A program made the position numbers and the translations under genes. DNA of 64,000 nucleotides from Pseudochryseolinea flava (GTDB taxonomy: Bacteria; Bacteroidota; Bacteroidia; Cytophagales; Cyclobacteriaceae). Location of the stretch: positions 558,001 to 622,000 of the forward strand of contig NZ_QMFY01000001.1 of NCBI RefSeq assembly GCF_003286915.1, read 5' to 3'. Shown here one piece after another: positions 4,743-28,598 of this stretch; the first letter of the stretch is position 1, and each line of letters opens with the position of its first letter. The notes beneath the pieces were generated by a model, which saw only the letters and a list, made by a program, of their open reading frames with translations, did no database searches and had not been told where the DNA came from.

Positions 4743-4776
4743 AGAAGTCAGAAGTAAGAAGTAAAAAGTAAGAAGT
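4743..4776 (+). repeat. Heptad array, GAAGTCA family, left arm
   Basis: Five consecutive units with an exact 7-base period: AGAAGTC, AGAAGTA, AGAAGTA, AAAAGTA, AGAAGT. The array starts four bases after the rodA stop. It is the inverted partner of the array at 4824-4860 across the terminator. The same family borders the gene at 26957-27316. Confidence 0.85.
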
Positions 4777-4823: not shown

Positions 4824-4860
4824 ATTCTGACTTCTGACTCCTGACTTCTGTCTCCTGATT
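4824..4860 (-). repeat. Heptad array, GAAGTCA family, right arm (inverted)
   Basis: Units ATTCTGA, CTTCTGA, CTCCTGA, CTTCTGT, CTCCTGA follow each other with a 7-base period and end just before the frr stop codon at 4863. Most of the array is identical to the right arm at 27362-27393, apart from one missing unit there. Confidence 0.87.
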
Positions 4861-5440: not shown

Positions 5441-6148
5441 TTAGCTGATCAATGTACCGGCTTCTTCGCCTTTAACAACCTTGAGGAGATTTCCCTTTGT
5501 ATTCATGTCGAACACAATGATCGGAAGTTTATTTTCCATACAAAGCGTGAAGGCAGTCATGTCCATGATATTGAGATTCTTTTCGTAAGCCTCTTGAAAG
5601 GACAAGGTTTTGTAGCGGACTGCATCCGGATATTTTTCTGGATCTTTTGTGTATACACCATCAACACGTGTTCCTTTTAGAACAACATCAGCTTGAACCT
5701 CGATTGCACGTAAACTCGCTGTCGAATCTGTCGTGAAGTACGGATTACCGATACCTGCACCGAATATTACAATTCTACCTTTCTCGAGGTGGCGAATGGC
5801 ACGGCGACGAATAAATGGCTCGCAAACTTGTTCCATTTTAATACCCGCCATCAAACGCGTATACATGCCGTGGCGCTCCAATGAACTCTGCAATGCCATC
5901 GCATTAATTACTGTTGCAAGCATCCCCATATAATCGCCTTGAACGCGATCGATACCCAATGCCTCAGCTTGACCGCCACGGAAGATGTTTCCGCCACCGA
6001 TCACGATAGCGATCTCCACGCCCTGGTCTTTCAATAATTTGATCTCAGCGCAGTATTGCTCAAGGATCGACGTGTCTATGTTCGTGCTCTTTGAGCTTCC
6101 CTGCAGCGCTTCGCCACTGAGTTTAAGGAGGATGCGTTTATACTTCAT
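5441..6148 (-). CDS. pyrH: Uridylate kinase (UMP kinase)
   Basis: A 235-residue amino-acid-kinase-fold enzyme that phosphorylates UMP to UDP. Visible signatures are the N-terminal [11 protein letters not shown], the [10 protein letters not shown] loop, [16 protein letters not shown]-x-G-N-P-Y-F-T-T-D and D-G-V-Y-T-K-D-P. It is the first gene of the pyrH-frr unit. Length and motifs are normal. Confidence 0.97.
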
Positions 6149-6325
6149 TCAGAATTAAGATTTCTAAGCCACAAAATTGGCGCAATATAAACGAAGTCTA
6201 AGGCTTTAAAAAGACTTGTGAGGTCGTCTGGCAGGCTTTTCTTTGGGAACAAAGAAACTTTCGCAAATAACGCATCCCAGCAAATTAAAATTAGCCAAAG
6301 CGTGGTCTGCCCACCCCACAAGATA

Positions 6326-9443: not shown

Positions 9444-10718
9444 GTGATTCGCCAGGTTAAATACACCACTTTCTTGCGCGATGTGCTCGTGCTGGCCTTC
9501 ACCACATTTGGAGGTCCTCAAGCACATCTTGCACATTTCCAAAAGATACTGATCGACAAGCGAAAGTATCTGTCAGAAGAGGATCTCATGGAATTGAATT
9601 CGCTCTGTCAGATGCTTCCTGGACCGACCTCAACACAAACGCTTGCCGCTATCGGCTATCGACTTGGCGGACCTAATCTCGCGTATCTAACGTTGTTGGT
9701 TTGGATCTTACCCGCCGTGATTGTGATGACAACAGCCGGCGTGATCATGTCGAGTATTCAAGAAAAAAATTGGTCTCTCGCGTTCACCAGTTTCATTGAA
9801 CCCATGGCCGTTGGATTTATTTCGTACGGCGCATACTTTATCAGTATCCGCACCATCAATACAAAAACAGGAACCGCGTTGTTTGTGATTGCAGCAGTAT
9901 TCTCCTATATCATTCAAACACCGTTCATCTTTCCTGCTATTCTCTTGGGGGCCGGATTAGTTACGGCATTGAAATACAAAGCGCAGCCTAAAGAGGAGAA
10001 AACAAAAATTGTAATCCCGTGGGCAAATTTTACACTATGGGCAGGCGTGCTTATTGTAGCAGCGATATTGGGTGGCGTTACCAAATCACTACATGTAAAA
10101 CTCTTTGAAAATTTTTATCGAAATGGAAGCCTCGTCTTTGGCGGAGGACAAGTACTTACACCATTGCTCTACACCGAATTTGTTGAGGTCACAGAAGGTA
10201 CGAAAGAAGATAATACGCGGGCTAACGAGCTAAAAACTAAAATCAAAAAACAATATAAACTTAAACCACTTCACCACCCCGTTTCGCATAATGAGTTTCT
10301 TTCTGGCTATGCTTTCGCGCAAGCTTTGCCCGGTCCCGTGTTCTCTTTCAGCGCATACATTGGTGCGTTGTCGGCGCGTGACTTCGGTGTTGGTGGTGCT
10401 ATTCTCGGTGGCATAGTGGCCGCGCTTGGAATTTTCTTACCAGGAACATTTTTAACATTTTTCGTGATACGCTTCTGGGAGAGCTTAAAAAAATACCGCG
10501 GCGTGCGCGCATCGCTCGAAGGAATAACCGCCGCAAGTTGTGGACTTGTTGCCGCATCGGCCATCATACTATTTCAACCGCTCGCAAATACTTTTCTTAA
10601 CTTCAGCGTAACCATTGCAACGTTCTGCCTTCTCGCTTTTACCAAAGTTCCGTCGCCCGTCATTATCGTTGGCGGATTGCTGTTGGGATTTGGTTACCGC
10701 GCTGTCTTTATGCAGTAG
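9444..10718 (+). CDS. Chromate transporter family protein (ChrA-like)
   Basis: A 424-residue membrane protein read from a GTG start. It has the two-domain CHR architecture. The N-terminal domain has F-G-G-P-Q-A-H-L-A-H-F and Q-M-L-P-G-P-T-S-T-Q; the C-terminal domain has F-G-G-G-Q-V-L-T-P-L-L and Q-A-L-P-G-P-V-F-S-F. The family exchanges chromate for other anions and can confer chromate resistance, but many members have unknown cargo. A lysine-rich cytoplasmic linker separates the domains. The preceding oxygenase gene is close enough for co-transcription. Confidence 0.9.
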   Translation: MIRQVKYTTFLRDVLVLAFTTFGGPQAHLAHFQKILIDKRKYLSEEDLMELNSLCQMLPGPTSTQTLAAIGYRLGGPNLAYLTLLVWILPAVIVMTTAGVIMSSIQEKNWSLAFTSFIEPMAVGFISYGAYFISIRTINTKTGTALFVIAAVFSYIIQTPFIFPAILLGAGLVTALKYKAQPKEEKTKIVIPWANFTLWAGVLIVAAILGGVTKSLHVKLFENFYRNGSLVFGGGQVLTPLLYTEFVEVTEGTKEDNTRANELKTKIKKQYKLKPLHHPVSHNEFLSGYAFAQALPGPVFSFSAYIGALSARDFGVGGAILGGIVAALGIFLPGTFLTFFVIRFWESLKKYRGVRASLEGITAASCGLVAASAIILFQPLANTFLNFSVTIATFCLLAFTKVPSPVIIVGGLLLGFGYRAVFMQ

Positions 10719-10733
10719 CAAGTGCACAAATAC

Positions 10734-10988
10734 TTAGATCACATCGACTGGCAATTTGATTTGGTCGGAATAAAATTTCATCCGCGAATGATTCGTATCT
10801 AACAAGATAATACGCTCGATGATTGTGTTCTTATGATTGATAAATACTTCGAGATAAAAATTACCAAGAAGGTAAAGATTGATTTTGTATCCGTAGTAGC
10901 GTATAGCCATCACAAACGTACCTTCTTCATAAAGTACATCGATCTTTTCCTGAAGCGGAAGTTTCCTATAATCTGGCCACGCGATCAT
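10734..10988 (-). CDS. Small conserved hypothetical protein
   Basis: An 84-residue protein starting M-I-A-W-P-D-Y-R-K-L-P-L-Q-E-K-I-D-V-L-Y and ending K-L-P-V-D-V-I. It has no signal peptide or membrane segment. Alternating strand-like segments (F-V-M-A-I-R-Y-Y-G-Y-K-I-N-L-Y) suggest a small beta-rich fold. I do not recognise a named family; similar short proteins occur in Cytophagales. It converges on the chrA gene with a 15-base gap. Codon use looks natural, which supports a real gene. Confidence 0.6.
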   Translation of the reverse strand: MIAWPDYRKLPLQEKIDVLYEEGTFVMAIRYYGYKINLYLLGNFYLEVFINHKNTIIERIILLDTNHSRMKFYSDQIKLPVDVI

Positions 10989-13851: not shown

Positions 13852-15114
13852 GTGTCTGCCATCACATCTTTCGAAGATTTTAATCTGAATCGACAGCTGC
13901 TCAACGCCGTGAGTGACCTTGGATTTTCTGAGCCCACCGAAATCCAGCAGAAATGTATCCCACTCATCCTGGGTGGCCAGGAGGTGATCGGCATCGCGCA
14001 GACGGGTACTGGAAAGACAGCGGCATACCTTCTACCGCTGCTGATGAAAATTAAATATGCGCAGGGAACCGAACCGCGCGCGTTGATTCTCGCACCCACA
14101 AAAGAACTTACGATTCAGCTCGCTGAGCATGCTGCGCTTCTTGCAAAATATACTGACCTCCGCATACTTCCGTTGTACGGCGGTATTGGCCCGAAAACAC
14201 AAATAGAAAAAATTAAAGCCGGTGTCGATATCATCATCGCCACACCAGGTCGCTTCATGGAACTTTACTTACGAAACGACCTGCCCACCAAGCAAATAAA
14301 ATTCATGGTGCTTGACGAAGCTGATCGCATGATGGACATGGGTTTCATGCCACAGCTGAGAAAAATTCTTGAGGTAATTCCACGCAAGCGCCAGAACTTA
14401 TTATTCTCAGCAACTTTCCCAGAGAAAGTAGACAGGCTGTCTTCGGAATTTTTGGAATTTCCAACCAAGGTTGAAGTGACGCCACAAGCCACCACGGCGA
14501 AACAAGTTGAGCAAGAACTTTACGAAGTTCCAAACTTGAAAACCAAGATCAACTTCATCGAGCACCTGCTTCAAGATAAAGAGACATTTAACCGCGTCAT
14601 TATCTTCACGAGAACGAAGGAGCACGCCGACAATGTATTCAGTTTTATTGAGCGAAAAGGACTCGGCCCAGCAAAGGTCATTCACTCTAACAAAGGACAG
14701 AACACACGCATTAATGCGGTGAATGAATTTAAAGAAGGCAACCTTCGAATACTTGTATCAACGGATGTTACAGCACGTGGTATCGATGTTGTAAAAGTTT
14801 CTCATGTCATCAATTTCGATGTACCTGTGTTGTATGTCGATTATGTCCATCGCATCGGTCGAACAGGACGCGCCTTCCAAGAAGGTAAAGCGATCACATT
14901 AGTAAACATGGCCGAAGAATATCACATCGAAAAAATAGAAGAGATTATTCGCGAAAAGATCCCACGTAAAATTCTTCCAGGAGAAATTTTCATTGAGAAA
15001 ACACCTTTTGAAGAAAAGCAAGACATGAAACGCGAAATCGATAATCAACGAAAAAGAGAAGACCCTACGTTTAAGGGAGCGTTTCACGATAAGAAAAATC
15101 TTCCGAAAAGCTGA
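13852..15114 (+). CDS. DEAD-box ATP-dependent RNA helicase (RhlE/DeaD type)
   Basis: A 420-residue two-domain helicase read from GTG. The ordered motifs are a Q motif near F-S-E-P-T-E-I-Q-Q-K, A-Q-T-G-T-G-K-T (Walker A), P-T-K-E-L, T-P-G-R, D-E-A-D (Walker B), S-A-T, and H-R-I-G-R-T-G-R in domain 2. It unwinds RNA for ribosome assembly, decay or cold adaptation; which role applies cannot be told. It has a short lysine/arginine-rich C-terminal tail. Its TGA stop falls inside the first unit of a heptad repeat array at 15110. Confidence 0.94.
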   Translation: MSAITSFEDFNLNRQLLNAVSDLGFSEPTEIQQKCIPLILGGQEVIGIAQTGTGKTAAYLLPLLMKIKYAQGTEPRALILAPTKELTIQLAEHAALLAKYTDLRILPLYGGIGPKTQIEKIKAGVDIIIATPGRFMELYLRNDLPTKQIKFMVLDEADRMMDMGFMPQLRKILEVIPRKRQNLLFSATFPEKVDRLSSEFLEFPTKVEVTPQATTAKQVEQELYEVPNLKTKINFIEHLLQDKETFNRVIIFTRTKEHADNVFSFIERKGLGPAKVIHSNKGQNTRINAVNEFKEGNLRILVSTDVTARGIDVVKVSHVINFDVPVLYVDYVHRIGRTGRAFQEGKAITLVNMAEEYHIEKIEEIIREKIPRKILPGEIFIEKTPFEEKQDMKREIDNQRKREDPTFKGAFHDKKNLPKS

Positions 15115-15146
15115 AAGCTCAAAGCAGAAAGCTCAAAGTAGAAAGC
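15110..15146 (+). repeat. Heptad array, GCTCAAA family, left arm
   Basis: Units GCTGAAA, GCTCAAA, GCAGAAA, GCTCAAA, GTAGAAA run with an exact 7-base period. The first unit contains the helicase stop codon. It is the inverted partner of 15213-15247 across a terminator. Confidence 0.87.
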
Positions 15147-15212: not shown

Positions 15213-15247
15213 TAGCTTTACGCTTTTAGCTTTCTGCTTTAAGCTCT
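15213..15247 (-). repeat. Heptad array, GCTCAAA family, right arm (inverted)
   Basis: Units TAGCTTT, ACGCTTT, TAGCTTT, CTGCTTT, AAGCTCT run with a 7-base period and end at the rho stop codon. On the minus strand they read as AAAGCNN units like the left arm. Confidence 0.85.
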
Positions 15248-16869
15248 TACCCGTTCATCGAAAGCAAGAACTCTTCGTTGCTACGTGTGCCTTTCATTCT
15301 GCTTTGCAGGAATTCCATTGCTTCTACAGAATTCATGTCAGCCATAAATTTGCGAAGGATCCATACGCGTTGAAGTTCTTCTTCTTTCATCAACAGGTCC
15401 TCGCGACGTGTACCCGATGCAGGAACATCGATAGCAGGATAAACTCTCCTGTTAGAAAGTTTACGATCCAGCTGAAGTTCCATGTTACCTGTACCTTTAA
15501 ATTCTTCGAAGATAACTTCATCCATTTTAGAACCTGTATCGATCAACGCTGTAGCAATGATTGTCAATGATCCACCGTTTTCAATATTACGTGCAGCACC
15601 GAAGAAGCGCTTAGGTTTGTGAAGTGCATTCGCATCAACACCACCGGAAAGGATTTTTCCAGAAGATGGCACAACCGTGTTATAAGCGCGTGCAAGACGT
15701 GTGATAGAATCCAACAAGATCACTACGTCGTGACCACATTCAACCATGCGTTTTGCTTTCTCCAACACGATAGCAGATACTTTTACGTGACGCTCAGCTT
15801 GCTCGTCGAAAGTAGAAGCGATTACTTCTGCTTTTACACTGCGCGCCATATCCGTTACCTCTTCTGGACGTTCATCGATTAGCAGCACAATCAAATAAAC
15901 CTCAGGGTGATTTTCAGCAATCGCGTTAGCAATATTCTTTAACAACACTGTTTTACCAGTCTTCGGTTGTGCTACGATCATACCGCGTTGCCCTTTACCA
16001 ATTGGAGAGAACAAATCGAGGATACGTGTAGAAAGATTATCGGGTGTTGTGCTGAGCTTTAATTTTTCATCCGGGAAGAGTGGTGTGAGATATTCGAAAG
16101 CTACGCGGTCACGAATTTCGTCAGTTGTTTTTCCGTTAACAGATTCAACTTTTAATAAAGCGAAATACTTCTCACCTTCTTTTGGTGGACGGATAAGACC
16201 TTTGCAAGTATCACCCGTTTTCAACCCAAACAATTTGATCTGCGATGGCGATACATAAATATCGTCGGGGCTTGCCAGGTAGTTATAGTCAGAAGAGCGA
16301 AGGAAGCCGTATCCATCTTGCATGATTTCCAACACGCCTTCATTGCTGATCGCGCCATCGAATTCACGAATAGCAAGACGTTGTGATTGTTGTTGATGGT
16401 GTGGACGTTGCTGCTGCGGGCGTTGCTCTTCATGACTCTCATGACGTTCGCTGCGCTGCGGAGCTTCTTCGGTCGTATTTTTATTATTGCTCTCTGACGA
16501 CGAATATGCTTCAGACGAATCGTCGAAAGATGATACAGATGAGTTTCCGAAATCAAGATTGATAGAATCTAATAATTCGTCGGTTGACAAATCATCAGAT
16601 GAACTTTCCTCGGCCTTCGGCGGTGTTGGTGCAACGTTCTCGCGACGACGCGGTCTCATCTTGCGTTCCGGTTCAGATTCAGTTGAGGCAGTAGGTGCAG
16701 ATTTTTTTGCAGGTGCTGGGGCAGTTTCAGGGGAGGCAGCTTGTTGATCGAGAATCTTGTAGATAAGATCCTGCTTGGACAACTTCTTGGCGTTCTTTAC
16801 GCCCATTCCCTCAGCAATCTCTTTTAGCTCAGAAAGGAGCCTGACATTCAGGTCGTCAATAGTGTACAT
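15247..16869 (-). CDS. rho: Transcription termination factor Rho
   Basis: A 540-residue Rho, about 120 residues longer than E. coli Rho. The order is an N-terminal Rho_N helical domain (1-45), a long low-complexity insert (about 46-165) rich in Ser, Glu, Asp, then Gln and His, a cold-shock-like RNA-binding domain (about 166-245), and a RecA-like ATPase with [19 protein letters not shown] and [13 protein letters not shown]. Rho is a hexameric RNA translocase that ends transcription. Bacteroidota Rho proteins carry such inserts; in Bacteroides thetaiotaomicron the disordered region has been linked to phase separation. It faces the helicase across a terminator. Confidence 0.96.
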
Positions 16870-26103: not shown

Positions 26104-26850
26104 TTATATGTAAATATCATCGGGATATTTAACGTGCACCAAATATAACCCATACGGAGGAACATTCGCGCCTGCTTTTTTCCGGTCTCGATGGTGGATG
26201 ATATTCTTAAACTCCTCGACAGAAATTTTCCCGGTGCCCACGTCTATTAATGTGCCTACGGTCGCACGAACCATACCCCGCAAAAACCGATTCGCTGCGA
26301 TTACAAATTCCAATCTATCTCCCTGCACATGCCACTCCGCTTGTGTAACGTCACAAAGAAAATGTTTTACGTTAGTTTTCACTTTGCTAAACGATTCAAA
26401 ATCGTGCTCGCCTAACATGTGCGATGCTGCTTCATTCATCAGATCTATATTGACGTGCCGGAAGTGATGCCAGGCGAGTTTATCAAGAAACGGATTTCTA
26501 ACTGTTGTGATGCGATAATTATAGACGCGTTGTAATGCAGCGTATCGTGCGTGAACATCGTCACGAACGCGGCGTACCGATGGTAGATAAATATCTTTTG
26601 GCAGGAATGCATTCAGACGAAAGAGTAGCTGATCAAGGTCTTCAACATCTTGCTGCACATCGACGTGAAAAAATTGTTGCTCGCAATGAACACCGGCATC
26701 CGTTCTACCACTACCATAAATCTCGACTTGCTCTCTCAAGAGTTTTCCTAAAGAATCTTCAACAACCGACTGAATACTGATGCCGTCTTGCTGTGTTTGC
26801 CATCCGATATAATTGGAGCCGTTGTATTGGATTTCGAAGAAGAGGCGCAT
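26104..26850 (-). CDS. truA: tRNA pseudouridine synthase A
   Basis: A 248-residue pseudouridine synthase. It starts with F-F-E-I-Q-Y-N-G-S-N-Y-I-G-W-Q-x-Q, contains the catalytic Asp in S-G-R-T-D-A-G-V-H, and has R-F-L-R-G-M-V-R-A-T-V-G-T-L near the end. It modifies positions 38-40 of tRNA. A heptad repeat arm sits four bases upstream of its start codon, so its leader RNA carries the repeat. Confidence 0.95.
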   Translation of the reverse strand: MRLFFEIQYNGSNYIGWQTQQDGISIQSVVEDSLGKLLREQVEIYGSGRTDAGVHCEQQFFHVDVQQDVEDLDQLLFRLNAFLPKDIYLPSVRRVRDDVHARYAALQRVYNYRITTVRNPFLDKLAWHHFRHVNIDLMNEAASHMLGEHDFESFSKVKTNVKHFLCDVTQAEWHVQGDRLEFVIAANRFLRGMVRATVGTLIDVGTGKISVEEFKNIIHHRDRKKAGANVPPYGLYLVHVKYPDDIYI

Positions 26851-26854
26851 GTTG

Positions 26855-26880
26855 AGAAGTCAGGAGACAGGAGTCAGAAT
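26855..26880 (+). repeat. Heptad array, GAAGTCA family, left border of four-helix-bundle gene
   Basis: Units AGAAGTC, AGGAGAC, AGGAGTC, AGAAT with a 7-base period. It is inverted relative to the array at 27362-27393. It begins four bases upstream of the truA start codon. Confidence 0.85.
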
Positions 26881-26956
26881 TTTTGAACTCAAATACAAGG
26901 ATAGTATAGTATAAGGAATCTTTAATAGCGGCATTGAAAAAACTTTGTTTTCACAG

Positions 26957-27316
26957 TCAAGAAGATGCTTCGATTGCTTTTATATAGGCGTCAAGAAGTT
27001 TGCTGGTTTCTTCGGATGAATTTTGCAAAATTATTGTATCTGCATACCCTAAATCGTTAGAAAGTAACGCATAGTACTTACACTCCTCCAGCGATGCTTG
27101 TGCAATATTTAAAAACCGAATCTTTTCGGGCTTGGTCCTTTTCCGATAGCCCTCAACAATGTTTGCAGCAATCGAAACAGCAGCTCGCCGATATTGTTGG
27201 GTCAAACAAAATAATTCTTCCCGTGGAAACACTTTTGTCAACCCATACACAGATAAAACTAATTGGTGAGCTCTCTGCCAAACGACAAGCTCCTTAAAAC
27301 TTTTTGATTTTTGCAT
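26957..27316 (-). CDS. Four-helix-bundle protein (S23/23S rRNA-IVS-type family)
   Basis: A 119-residue all-helical protein with the family hallmarks F-K-E-L-V-V-W-Q-R-A-H-Q-L near the start, Q-Y-R-R-A-A-V-S-I-A-A-N-I-V-E-G-Y in the middle and A-Q-A-S-L-E-E-C-K-Y-Y near residue 75. Relatives are encoded in 23S rRNA intervening sequences, and the Avd protein of diversity-generating retroelements shares the fold. Function of the stand-alone type is unknown. The gene sits alone between inverted heptad arrays, with AT-rich flanks. That setting suggests a passenger of a small repeat element. Confidence 0.9.
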   Translation of the reverse strand: MQKSKSFKELVVWQRAHQLVLSVYGLTKVFPREELFCLTQQYRRAAVSIAANIVEGYRKRTKPEKIRFLNIAQASLEECKYYALLSNDLGYADTIILQNSSEETSKLLDAYIKAIEASS

Positions 27317-27361
27317 AACGGTAAAATTTATTAGTATAACATATAAAACTATTCACGCTGC

Positions 27362-27393
27362 ATTCTGACTCCTGACTTCTGTCTCCTGACTCC
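27362..27393 (-). repeat. Heptad array, GAAGTCA family, right border of four-helix-bundle gene
   Basis: Units ATTCTGA, CTCCTGA, CTTCTGT, CTCCTGA, CTCC with a 7-base period. All but one unit of the array at 4824-4860 is reproduced here in the same order. It ends six bases before the stop codon of the thiolase gene. Confidence 0.87.
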
Positions 27394-27398
27394 AAAAT

Positions 27399-28598
27399 TC
27401 ACAGCCTCTCAAAAACAATCGCTATCCCTTGCCCTACTCCTACGCACATGGTTGCTAAACCGTAACGCACTTTTCGCCTTTTCATCTCGTGAAGTAATGT
27501 GGCACTGATGCGTACGCCACTGCAGCCCAATGGATGTCCTAAAGCAATAGCGCCTCCGTTGACGTTGACAATTGCCGGATCAATATTGAGATCGCGAACG
27601 CAGGCCAATGATTGTGACGCGAAAGCTTCATTGAGTTCAATCAAACCAATGTCGCCTATTTTTAATCCAGCGCGTTGCAATGCTTTTTGCGTGGCGGGTA
27701 CGGGACCGATGCCCATGTACGCAGGATCTACACCTGCGACACCGATCGCGACGATGCGGGCCATTGGCGTGAGATTAAAATTCTTTAGTGCCGATTCGCT
27801 CACAATTAAACTTGCGGCAGCGCCGTCGTTTATCCCCGAGGAATTTCCGGCGGTGACGGTGCCGTTCTGCTTGAATGCTGGTTTTAATGACGCTAGTTTT
27901 TCGAGCGAAGTCATTCTTGGATGTTCATCCGCGTCGAAAACGCGAGTGTTCCCTTTTTCATCCTTGATATCAACAGCAACCAATTCCGCTTTGAATTTTC
28001 CGTCGCTGAAAGCACGCTGATATTTTTCTTGCGATTGCAAGGCGAAGGCATCTTGCGCTTCTCGCGAGATGTTCCATTTCTTGGCCACATTTTCCGCCGT
28101 TTCACCCATTGAATAGGGATAGTAGAGATCCGAGAGTTTTTTGTTAATGAATCGCCACCCGATGGTCGTATCAAAAATTTCGGCTTGTCTTGAGAAAGCG
28201 GATGTCTGTTTCGGCATCACAAAAGGAGCGCGACTCATACTCTCGACACCTCCCGCGATGTAAGACACGCCATCACCCGATTGGATTGCACGCGCAGCAT
28301 CCGCGATCGCTTGAAGTCCTGAAGCACAAAGTCTGTTCACTGTAACACCAGCAATAGTAGATGGCAATCCCGCCAGCAACAATGCCATCCTCGCGACATT
28401 GCGATTGTCTTCACCGGCTTGGTTCGCAGCACCGAAAACAACCTCTTCTATGTTATTGACATCGAACGACGAATTTCGTTGGAGCAGCGTTTTGATGACA
28501 AGCGCTGCTAAATCATCGGGGCGACTTGCCGCTAAGGCTCCACCGTATTTTCCGATTGGTGTTCTTAAAATATCAACGACATAAGCTGAAGTACTCAT
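27399..28598 (-). CDS. Acetyl-CoA C-acyltransferase (thiolase, PcaF-like)
   Basis: A 399-residue thiolase. The N-terminal region R-T-P-I-G-K-Y-G-G-A-L-A and A-N-Q-A-G-E-D-N-R-N-V-A-R-M are typical of the beta-ketoadipyl-CoA thiolase subgroup. The catalytic Cys is in N-R-L-C-A-S-G-L; the C-terminal G-H-P-L-G-C-S-G and C-V-G-V-G-Q-G motifs are present. It cleaves or forms beta-ketoacyl-CoA. No other aromatic-degradation or beta-oxidation genes lie nearby, so the physiological substrate is uncertain. Confidence 0.9.
   Translation of the reverse strand: MSTSAYVVDILRTPIGKYGGALAASRPDDLAALVIKTLLQRNSSFDVNNIEEVVFGAANQAGEDNRNVARMALLLAGLPSTIAGVTVNRLCASGLQAIADAARAIQSGDGVSYIAGGVESMSRAPFVMPKQTSAFSRQAEIFDTTIGWRFINKKLSDLYYPYSMGETAENVAKKWNISREAQDAFALQSQEKYQRAFSDGKFKAELVAVDIKDEKGNTRVFDADEHPRMTSLEKLASLKPAFKQNGTVTAGNSSGINDGAAASLIVSESALKNFNLTPMARIVAIGVAGVDPAYMGIGPVPATQKALQRAGLKIGDIGLIELNEAFASQSLACVRDLNIDPAIVNVNGGAIALGHPLGCSGVRISATLLHEMKRRKVRYGLATMCVGVGQGIAIVFERL

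Follow-up and report, generated by a model that had tools for sequence, protein, structure and literature searches.

A four-helix-bundle gene framed by inverted heptad arrays as a candidate minimal mobile element

A small gene of the four-helix-bundle (23S_rRNA_IVP, or S23) family, enclosed by inverted arrays of 7-nt units, was found between truA and a thiolase gene in a 64,000-nucleotide window of the 6.54-Mb genome of Pseudochryseolinea flava (labelled G000). The same arrangement was observed in many bacteria, and gene and arrays are gained and lost between relatives; it therefore resembles a minimal and widespread kind of mobile DNA, akin to the parasitic inserts of rRNA genes. With reasonable though not strong confidence, we propose that the gene and its inverted 7-nt (less often 8-nt) arrays constitute a widespread, minimal mobile element of ~400-550 bp that resembles rRNA intervening sequences (IVSs).

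The whole element, arm, gene and arm, spans positions 26854-27393 on the minus strand, with truA (26104-26850, minus strand) as its left and the thiolase gene (27399-28598, minus strand) as its right neighbour. The element gene (26957-27316, minus strand) encodes 119 amino acids and is co-directional with both. It is the sole ORF of at least 100 aa inside the element, and the ends of the elements differ from one element to another. An ORF survey of the element found neither a reverse transcriptase ORF nor a Y1 transposase gene. The left arm (26854-26879, GAGAAGTCAGGAGACAGGAGTCAGAA) lies 3' of the gene and consists of the heptads GAAGTCA, GGAGACA and GGAGTCA on the plus strand. The right arm (27363-27393, TTCTGACTCCTGACTTCTGTCTCCTGACTCC) lies 5' of the gene and carries the units TTCTGAC, TCCTGAC, TTCTGTC and TCCTGAC on the plus strand. 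Each arm is the reverse complement of the other, with a local-alignment score of 17.5. RNA fold prediction pairs them into a long stem that encloses the gene (z -2.59; 2 of 100 shuffles were as good), as the terminal inverted repeats do around the S23 gene of an IVS. The location differs from that of an IVS, since the element lies between two protein genes without an rRNA gene.

The gene product belongs to PF05635 (23S_rRNA_IVP; E 2e-32, 112 bits against a cut-off of 33.8) and also matched TIGR02436 (four helix bundle protein; E 1.4e-31). Profiles and arm alignment thus confirmed the initial annotation, which had described an S23/four-helix-bundle gene enclosed by inverted GAAGTCA-type arrays. 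It had also suggested a fold common to rRNA IVS proteins and Avd; the former relationship is clear, while the bAvd/Avd models gave weak matches below their cut-offs (PF22296, E 3.8e-6; NF033474, E 5.9e-6). The gaps to the neighbouring genes are short, as had been noted. The left arm is separated from the truA start (26850) by 3 bases and the right arm from the thiolase stop (27399) by 5, not by 4 and 6, because the arm start was drawn differently.

The inverted frame is strongly tied to the gene family. In the host genome, seven of the eight family genes have matching inverted arms, and the eighth, arm-less, lies between tRNA genes. The arm motif differs among the elements (AAAGTT, TTAACGA, GAAGTCA, CAAGCTG, GTTCACG, a 14-nt double unit and the octad GTGTTGAC), while both arms of one element match: the mean alignment score is 21.1 for arms of the same element (7 pairings) versus 9.7, with a maximum of 14.5, for arms of different elements (42 pairings). 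Of the 23 family matches in the seven genus genomes, 15 are framed; among the 8 unframed ones, six are the tRNA-side gene, in one genome each, and L049 and L050 are partial matches. Arms were scored with a single scheme in 300-bp flanks. When the genus loci were combined with samples from the host's family and phylum, taken as the best Pfam matches of each search, 58 of 79 loci scored at least 12 (3 of 82 had been dropped as edge-cut), compared with 8.2% of 929 pairings in a mismatched-arm null and 7 of 79 loci in direct orientation; orthologous sites were counted separately and are non-independent.

The association extends well beyond the phylum. A GTDB genome scan by protein pattern gave at least 581 confirmed matches, and among the best 80 of these, 62 of 78 usable loci (2 were edge-cut) scored at least 13 (null, 4.8% of 930; direct orientation, 10 of 78). 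These best 80 of 581 came from Alpha-, Beta- and Gammaproteobacteria, cyanobacteria, Chloroflexi, Planctomycetes, Acidobacteria, Fibrobacter, Clostridia, an archaeon, a CPR bacterium and others. Of 20 mid-ranked family loci that were sampled, 11 were framed (null, 4.2% of 380). The remaining 9 of these, and 16 of the 78 loci from the best 80 of 581, fell below the threshold. Control ORFs, defined mechanically as the longest non-overlapping ORFs and not as annotated genes, were rarely framed. In 464 kb of the host genome, 363 ORFs reached 80 aa and two of them scored at least 14, namely the element gene and a formyltransferase gene; near the named loci (best 80 of 581), 18 of 374 ORFs scored at least 13, and 3 of these 18 are themselves 23S_rRNA_IVP genes. 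Hence these genes are bordered by such arrays more often than other genes, a comparison that the initial annotation had suggested, with a minority of the family unframed; a family generally lacking the arrays, which would have spoken against its proposal, was not what was found. The best period among 111 framed loci was 7 in 92, 8 in 16 and 5 or 6 in 3. The dinucleotide AG was present in 88 of 105 consensus units versus ~61 after shuffling, and TA in 65 versus 52.

Gene and arms are jointly present or absent at otherwise conserved sites. At the truA-thiolase site, the element was found in the host genome only, and the gene is absent there from all six other genomes of the genus. Two of these (G003 and G004) have no gap between the two genes, two (G001 and G006) have an array-less gap, and two (G002 and G005) have a gene-less inverted octad pair. 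The whole block is therefore variable in the genus; conservation of the gene at the site, which would have contradicted a mobile origin, was not observed.

Filled and empty sites were also compared base by base in cyanobacterial plasmids, where the net length differences at sites A to E are 507, 444, 428, 418 and 405 bp. At site C, Trichormus variabilis ATCC 29413 and Scytonema are filled and Aulosira and Nostoc linckia are empty, with ~97% identity in the matches; gene and arms are missing as a single block, the insert is bordered on both sides by GTAATAAA/GTAATTAA, and a third plasmid, of Nostoc C052, has a shrunken copy. At site A, Calothrix is filled and Aulosira, Tolypothrix and N. carneum are empty (~90% identity), and the insert is located between an integrase gene's stop and the next start. 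Site B is filled in Nostoc C052 and N. edaphicum and empty in C057 (94%), and ~30-45 bp of adjoining sequence also differ. About 2 bp were lost at site D (C052) and about 8 bp at site E (Aulosira), including the last codons of the host ORF. At site D2 (ATCC 53789), a sister plasmid carries a different element one gene further on; ATG is repeated, and some 40 bp past the right arm are also changed. The junction change, with lengths at C, D, D2 and E judged by eye, is thus about +8 at site C (with one mismatch), +3 at D2, -2 at D and -8 at E, and a target-site duplication of one fixed length was rejected. No arrays are present at the empty versions of sites A, B, C, D, D2 and E, which rejects insertion into pre-existing arrays. 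From these comparisons, gene and arms were gained or lost jointly, without one fixed duplication. The mobility suggested by the initial annotation is accordingly supported for the class, by the plasmid pairs and by the variable genus site, and the truA-thiolase element is a putative mobile copy. No near-identical element was found at two unlinked sites, and plasmid copies of the same subfamily are ~78-85% identical.

Inverted pairs without a gene have the same motif and polarity and are dispersed in the three genomes checked. In the window, one such pair (left arm 4743-4776, right arm 4825-4857) lies between the convergent genes rodA and frr, and its right arm has the motif of the element's right arm. 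The latter had been described as a copy of the rodA/frr array, there placed at 4824-4860, with one unit missing; it does lack one TTCTGAC unit, and the last few bases differ as well. The rodA/frr pair had further been taken as a version of the element without the gene. It is indeed a gene-less inverted pair of the same motif, but is better seen as one of many such pairs than as a parent. A second pair, of AAAGCTG type (left arm 15107-15146, right arm 15213-15250), lies between convergent ORFs, and each of the two pairs surrounds a terminator-like hairpin, as judged by eye.

In 464 kb of the host genome, arrays with a period of 6-9 numbered 23, of which 20 had period 7, compared with none in one block-shuffled copy. 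The motif of the window matched 73 times in the host genome and 2, 17, 0, 1, 31 and 2 times in G001 to G006, respectively. The octad GTGTTTAN matched 117 times in G002, 80 times in G005 and 4-8 times in each of the five other genus genomes; G002 and G005 each carry a framed gene whose arms have this octad (L045 and L046). When adjacent opposite arrays no more than 700 bp apart were considered, using the matches listed for G002 and G005 and one match per array for the host genome, all of the 18 pairs had the G-rich arm first. The gene lies inside two of them, and the arrays of the other 16 are no more than 150 bp apart, too close for it. The polarity is strong and not absolute, because G outnumbers C in the 5' arm of 45 of the 58 framed gene loci, is outnumbered by it in 10 and equals it in 3.

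Matches to the site C element were found at 83 places on 40 plasmid records, and many of these consist of arms only. Eight gene-less plasmid copies were read. Six of them, from Nostocales (L237, L238, L240, L241, L242 and L244), share a structured interior of ~100 nt with paired, compensatory changes and have the common outer ends TTGAAGAA and CTGTT(T/C)GATAA or close variants; the two others have other interiors. The shared interior is possibly a non-coding RNA not described before or the remnant of another small element. L237 and L238 had no Rfam match. In the Rfam search of gene-less and gene-bearing plasmid copies and L003, all 24 matches were under the gathering scores; a single heptad hairpin of L223 accounts for 23 of them, and the remaining one is in L221. 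At 6081-6160, L223 has a gene-less inverted heptad hairpin of AGGGGCAGGGGAGCAGG type near a restriction endonuclease gene. At site D0, a gene-less pair is present in C052 and absent from two related plasmids.

The two arms of an element appear to change together. At a site common to G000, G002 and G005, where the flanking proteins are 79-98% identical, both arms have GTGTTGA units in G000 and GTGTTTA/GTGTGTA-type units in G002 and G005. The near-identical elements at site B (L223 and L224) differ in unit number. Protein similarity and arm motif were weakly correlated in a Mantel test (rho 0.157; 5791 pairs from 111 loci, with 314 pairs sharing a flanking protein excluded and letters beyond the 20 amino acids set to A), and 1 of 1000 permutations was as high. 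This is below the expectation for strict recognition, and a one-to-one match of protein and motif was rejected. Framed genes mostly lie in the direction of both neighbours: among the 100 of 112 framed loci that could be classified, 81 read with both neighbours and 5 against both, compared with 151 and 51 of 327 other ORFs. The inserts at plasmid sites A-E are likewise co-directional with their neighbours. This sense bias, together with the predicted fold, suggests a life inside transcripts.

The closest known relatives are the rRNA IVSs with an S23p ORF, reported from Coxiella, Leptospira, CPR bacteria and others, which have the same gene family, terminal inverted repeats and a long stem. According to PMC4990558, the Coxiella 23S IVS is ~430 nt long, its terminal inverted repeats form a 28-bp stem, two or three GACAGAT heptads, depending on the strain, precede the S23 gene, and RNase III cuts at the first heptad repeat. 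Its anatomy is the same as that of the elements reported here. The same source regards both the origin and the function of the rRNA intervening sequences as unclear to date (PMC4990558), and an S23-type ORF is reported for rRNA inserts of CPR bacteria in PMC11270868. Unlike IVSs, the elements here lie between protein genes, occur several times per genome, have heptad or octad arrays in both arms and have gene-less copies; cutting by RNase III was demonstrated only for the rRNA IVS. In the view of the Coxiella authors, S23p is not produced in vivo and the RNA is more important (PMC4990558), which speaks against a needed protein in Coxiella. In the open-licence PMC literature, we found no paper taking the IVS anatomy to genes outside rRNA, and none that mentions a four helix bundle protein together with heptanucleotide repeats or the S23 ribosomal protein together with flanking repeats.

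The protein family itself is common. A family gene is present in 103 of 118 genomes sampled from the host's family and in 116 of 148 from its phylum. When 15 family loci, most with weak or no arms, were checked for location, none was in rRNA, and L008 was between tRNA genes. One family protein searched against phage records gave no match. The PDB relatives 2gsc and 2rld contain five chains each, and a homopentameric torus is cited for a Xanthomonas relative in PMC4990558. A 23S rRNA IVP is named in a panel on CRISPR adaptation modules in PMC10910872. Avd of diversity-generating retroelements is a related four-helix-bundle protein, with profile matches here below the cut-off; it stands beside a reverse transcriptase, whereas the element here has no such ORF, and no RVT_1 match was found in G002, which carries four framed genes (one with an internal stop).

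If the proposed IVS-like mobile element is real, it would be transcribed with the host operon, and its arms would fold back into a long stem with the gene set in the hairpin, as in 23S rRNA intervening sequences, where RNase III cuts the stem. The protein, pentameric in solved relatives, probably binds the arm stem, perhaps with one repeat unit per subunit, and the bound protein may keep or carry the folded element. Spread would then occur as a folded single strand, either RNA or ssDNA, which host machinery would copy or insert without a fixed target duplication, and copying between the arms could maintain complementarity while the motif drifts. Several findings weigh against this proposal: the element encodes no catalytic protein, near-identical copies at unlinked sites were not found, part of the family is unframed, the correlation of arm motif with protein similarity is weak, and the changed stretch extends beyond the arms at sites B and D2, with junctions that vary by site. 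In profile matches of the genus genomes, neither RVT_1 nor Y1_Tnp was found in every carrier. Neither enzyme is plainly required in the same genome, because Y1_Tnp is absent from G001 and RVT_1 from G002, both carriers; the requirement for either was rejected, although a lost or different helper could have served.

An unlikely alternative is that the arms are hairpin ends like those of REPINs or IS200/IS605, on which a Y1 (HUH) transposase would act in trans by recognising the folded ssDNA. The four-helix-bundle gene would then be mere cargo or supply an accessory factor. Gene-less and gene-bearing pairs have a common motif and polarity, the plasmid junctions lack a fixed target duplication, and the outer ends common to the six gene-less plasmid copies are reminiscent of IS200/IS605 cleavage motifs. 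However, G001 has a framed gene without a Y1_Tnp match, G003 and G004 have Y1_Tnp matches without a framed gene, and the constant cargo across phyla, among the best 80 of 581 matches, is the four-helix-bundle family and not a transposase. The element itself lacks the linkage to a Y1 gene that marks REPIN/RAYT systems. As described in PMC3116915, REPINs are inverted hairpin doublets that are extragenic, dispersed and linked to one gene, and by analogy they are the nearest working model; their repeats form sequence groups and their gene is a tyrosine transposase, whereas the arrays here are element-specific and the gene has no known catalytic activity.

It is less probable still that nothing moves, that is, that a resident gene had its flanks grow heptads by slippage and that complementarity was selected for an RNA stem in processing or insulation of operon mRNA. 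Such a history would account for the sense bias beside co-directional neighbours, for the joint change of both arms at the G000/G002/G005 site and for the varying unit number in L223/L224. It does not account for the presence and absence of gene plus arms at several plasmid sites, for the different element at a neighbouring gene junction in the sister plasmid (D2) or for the variability of the truA-thiolase site in the genus. That heptad hairpins arise independently and serve as a hot spot for a mobile four-helix-bundle gene is very unlikely, even with gene-less pairs and single arrays as frequent as in the host genome (the 20 period-7 arrays above): this reading is largely refuted by array-less empty plasmid sites, at which gene and arms arrive jointly, and by the truA-thiolase site, which is array-less in 4 of 6 relatives. 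Meaningless repeats near a small gene, arising by chance or composition, were rejected with near certainty, since despite the frequent heptad arrays of the host genome the mismatched-arm nulls are 4-8%, the ORF control is 2 of 363 and the polarity is 18 of 18.

Beyond an IVS-like mobile element, a wider reading is offered tentatively, and we would put it at somewhat below even. The elements might form a categorically new, pan-prokaryotic mobile class, in which structure and period, rather than sequence, define the ends (inverted arrays whose 7-nt units often contain one AG) and the sole protein is a pentamer without catalytic activity that wraps the repeats, each subunit taking one unit; the rRNA IVSs with an S23 gene would then be members that landed in rRNA genes. 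TRAP is a model for a protein that wraps repeats with one unit per subunit. To our knowledge, the putative class would be smaller than the known insertion sequences. Sequence-variable yet matched ends call for a copying mechanism, and we are not familiar with one of this kind from insertion sequences. The four-helix-bundle family is common and without known function; the shared frame supplies a common anatomy and turns the question of function into one of binding between the protein and its own arms.

The elements may also explain part of the intergenic heptad repeats in Bacteroidota and cyanobacteria. Heptamer repeats in overlapping bacterial groups include the STRR and SDR repeats, besides the TAACTGA repeats. 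The latter, found in cyanobacteria, Beggiatoaceae and Bacteroidetes, are like the arrays here in being intergenic 7-nt tandem arrays with indels in 7-nt steps (PMC4679880). They are described there as direct repeats, without a link to a four-helix-bundle gene, and the main text of PMC4679880 has no mention of four-helix, S23, 23S or intervening sequence.

Several further arrangements were observed. The tRNA-side, arm-less ortholog recurs in six of the seven genus genomes (L008, L043, L044, L047, L048 and L053; in five of the six the preceding tRNA-like sequence was judged by eye only) and is perhaps a domesticated member of the family. Pairs of family genes ~1.6-1.8 kb apart recur in several genomes, as though a single gene of a common operon had an element on either side (e.g., G104:C63:188638 and 190253; G033:C15:56455 and 58063; G007:C32:66143 and 67885). 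The other framed ORF among the 363 controls is a purN-like formyltransferase gene inside inverted AAAGTTT-type arrays (L057, 11014-11742; G000:C11), and the same locus has a small ORF between two direct, non-inverted TTAATCG arrays of 46 and 67 bp (10393-10932). In Phormidium, an ORF without a Pfam match lies inside long inverted GGGAGTA-type arrays with a score of 45.5 (L153, 1208-1831).
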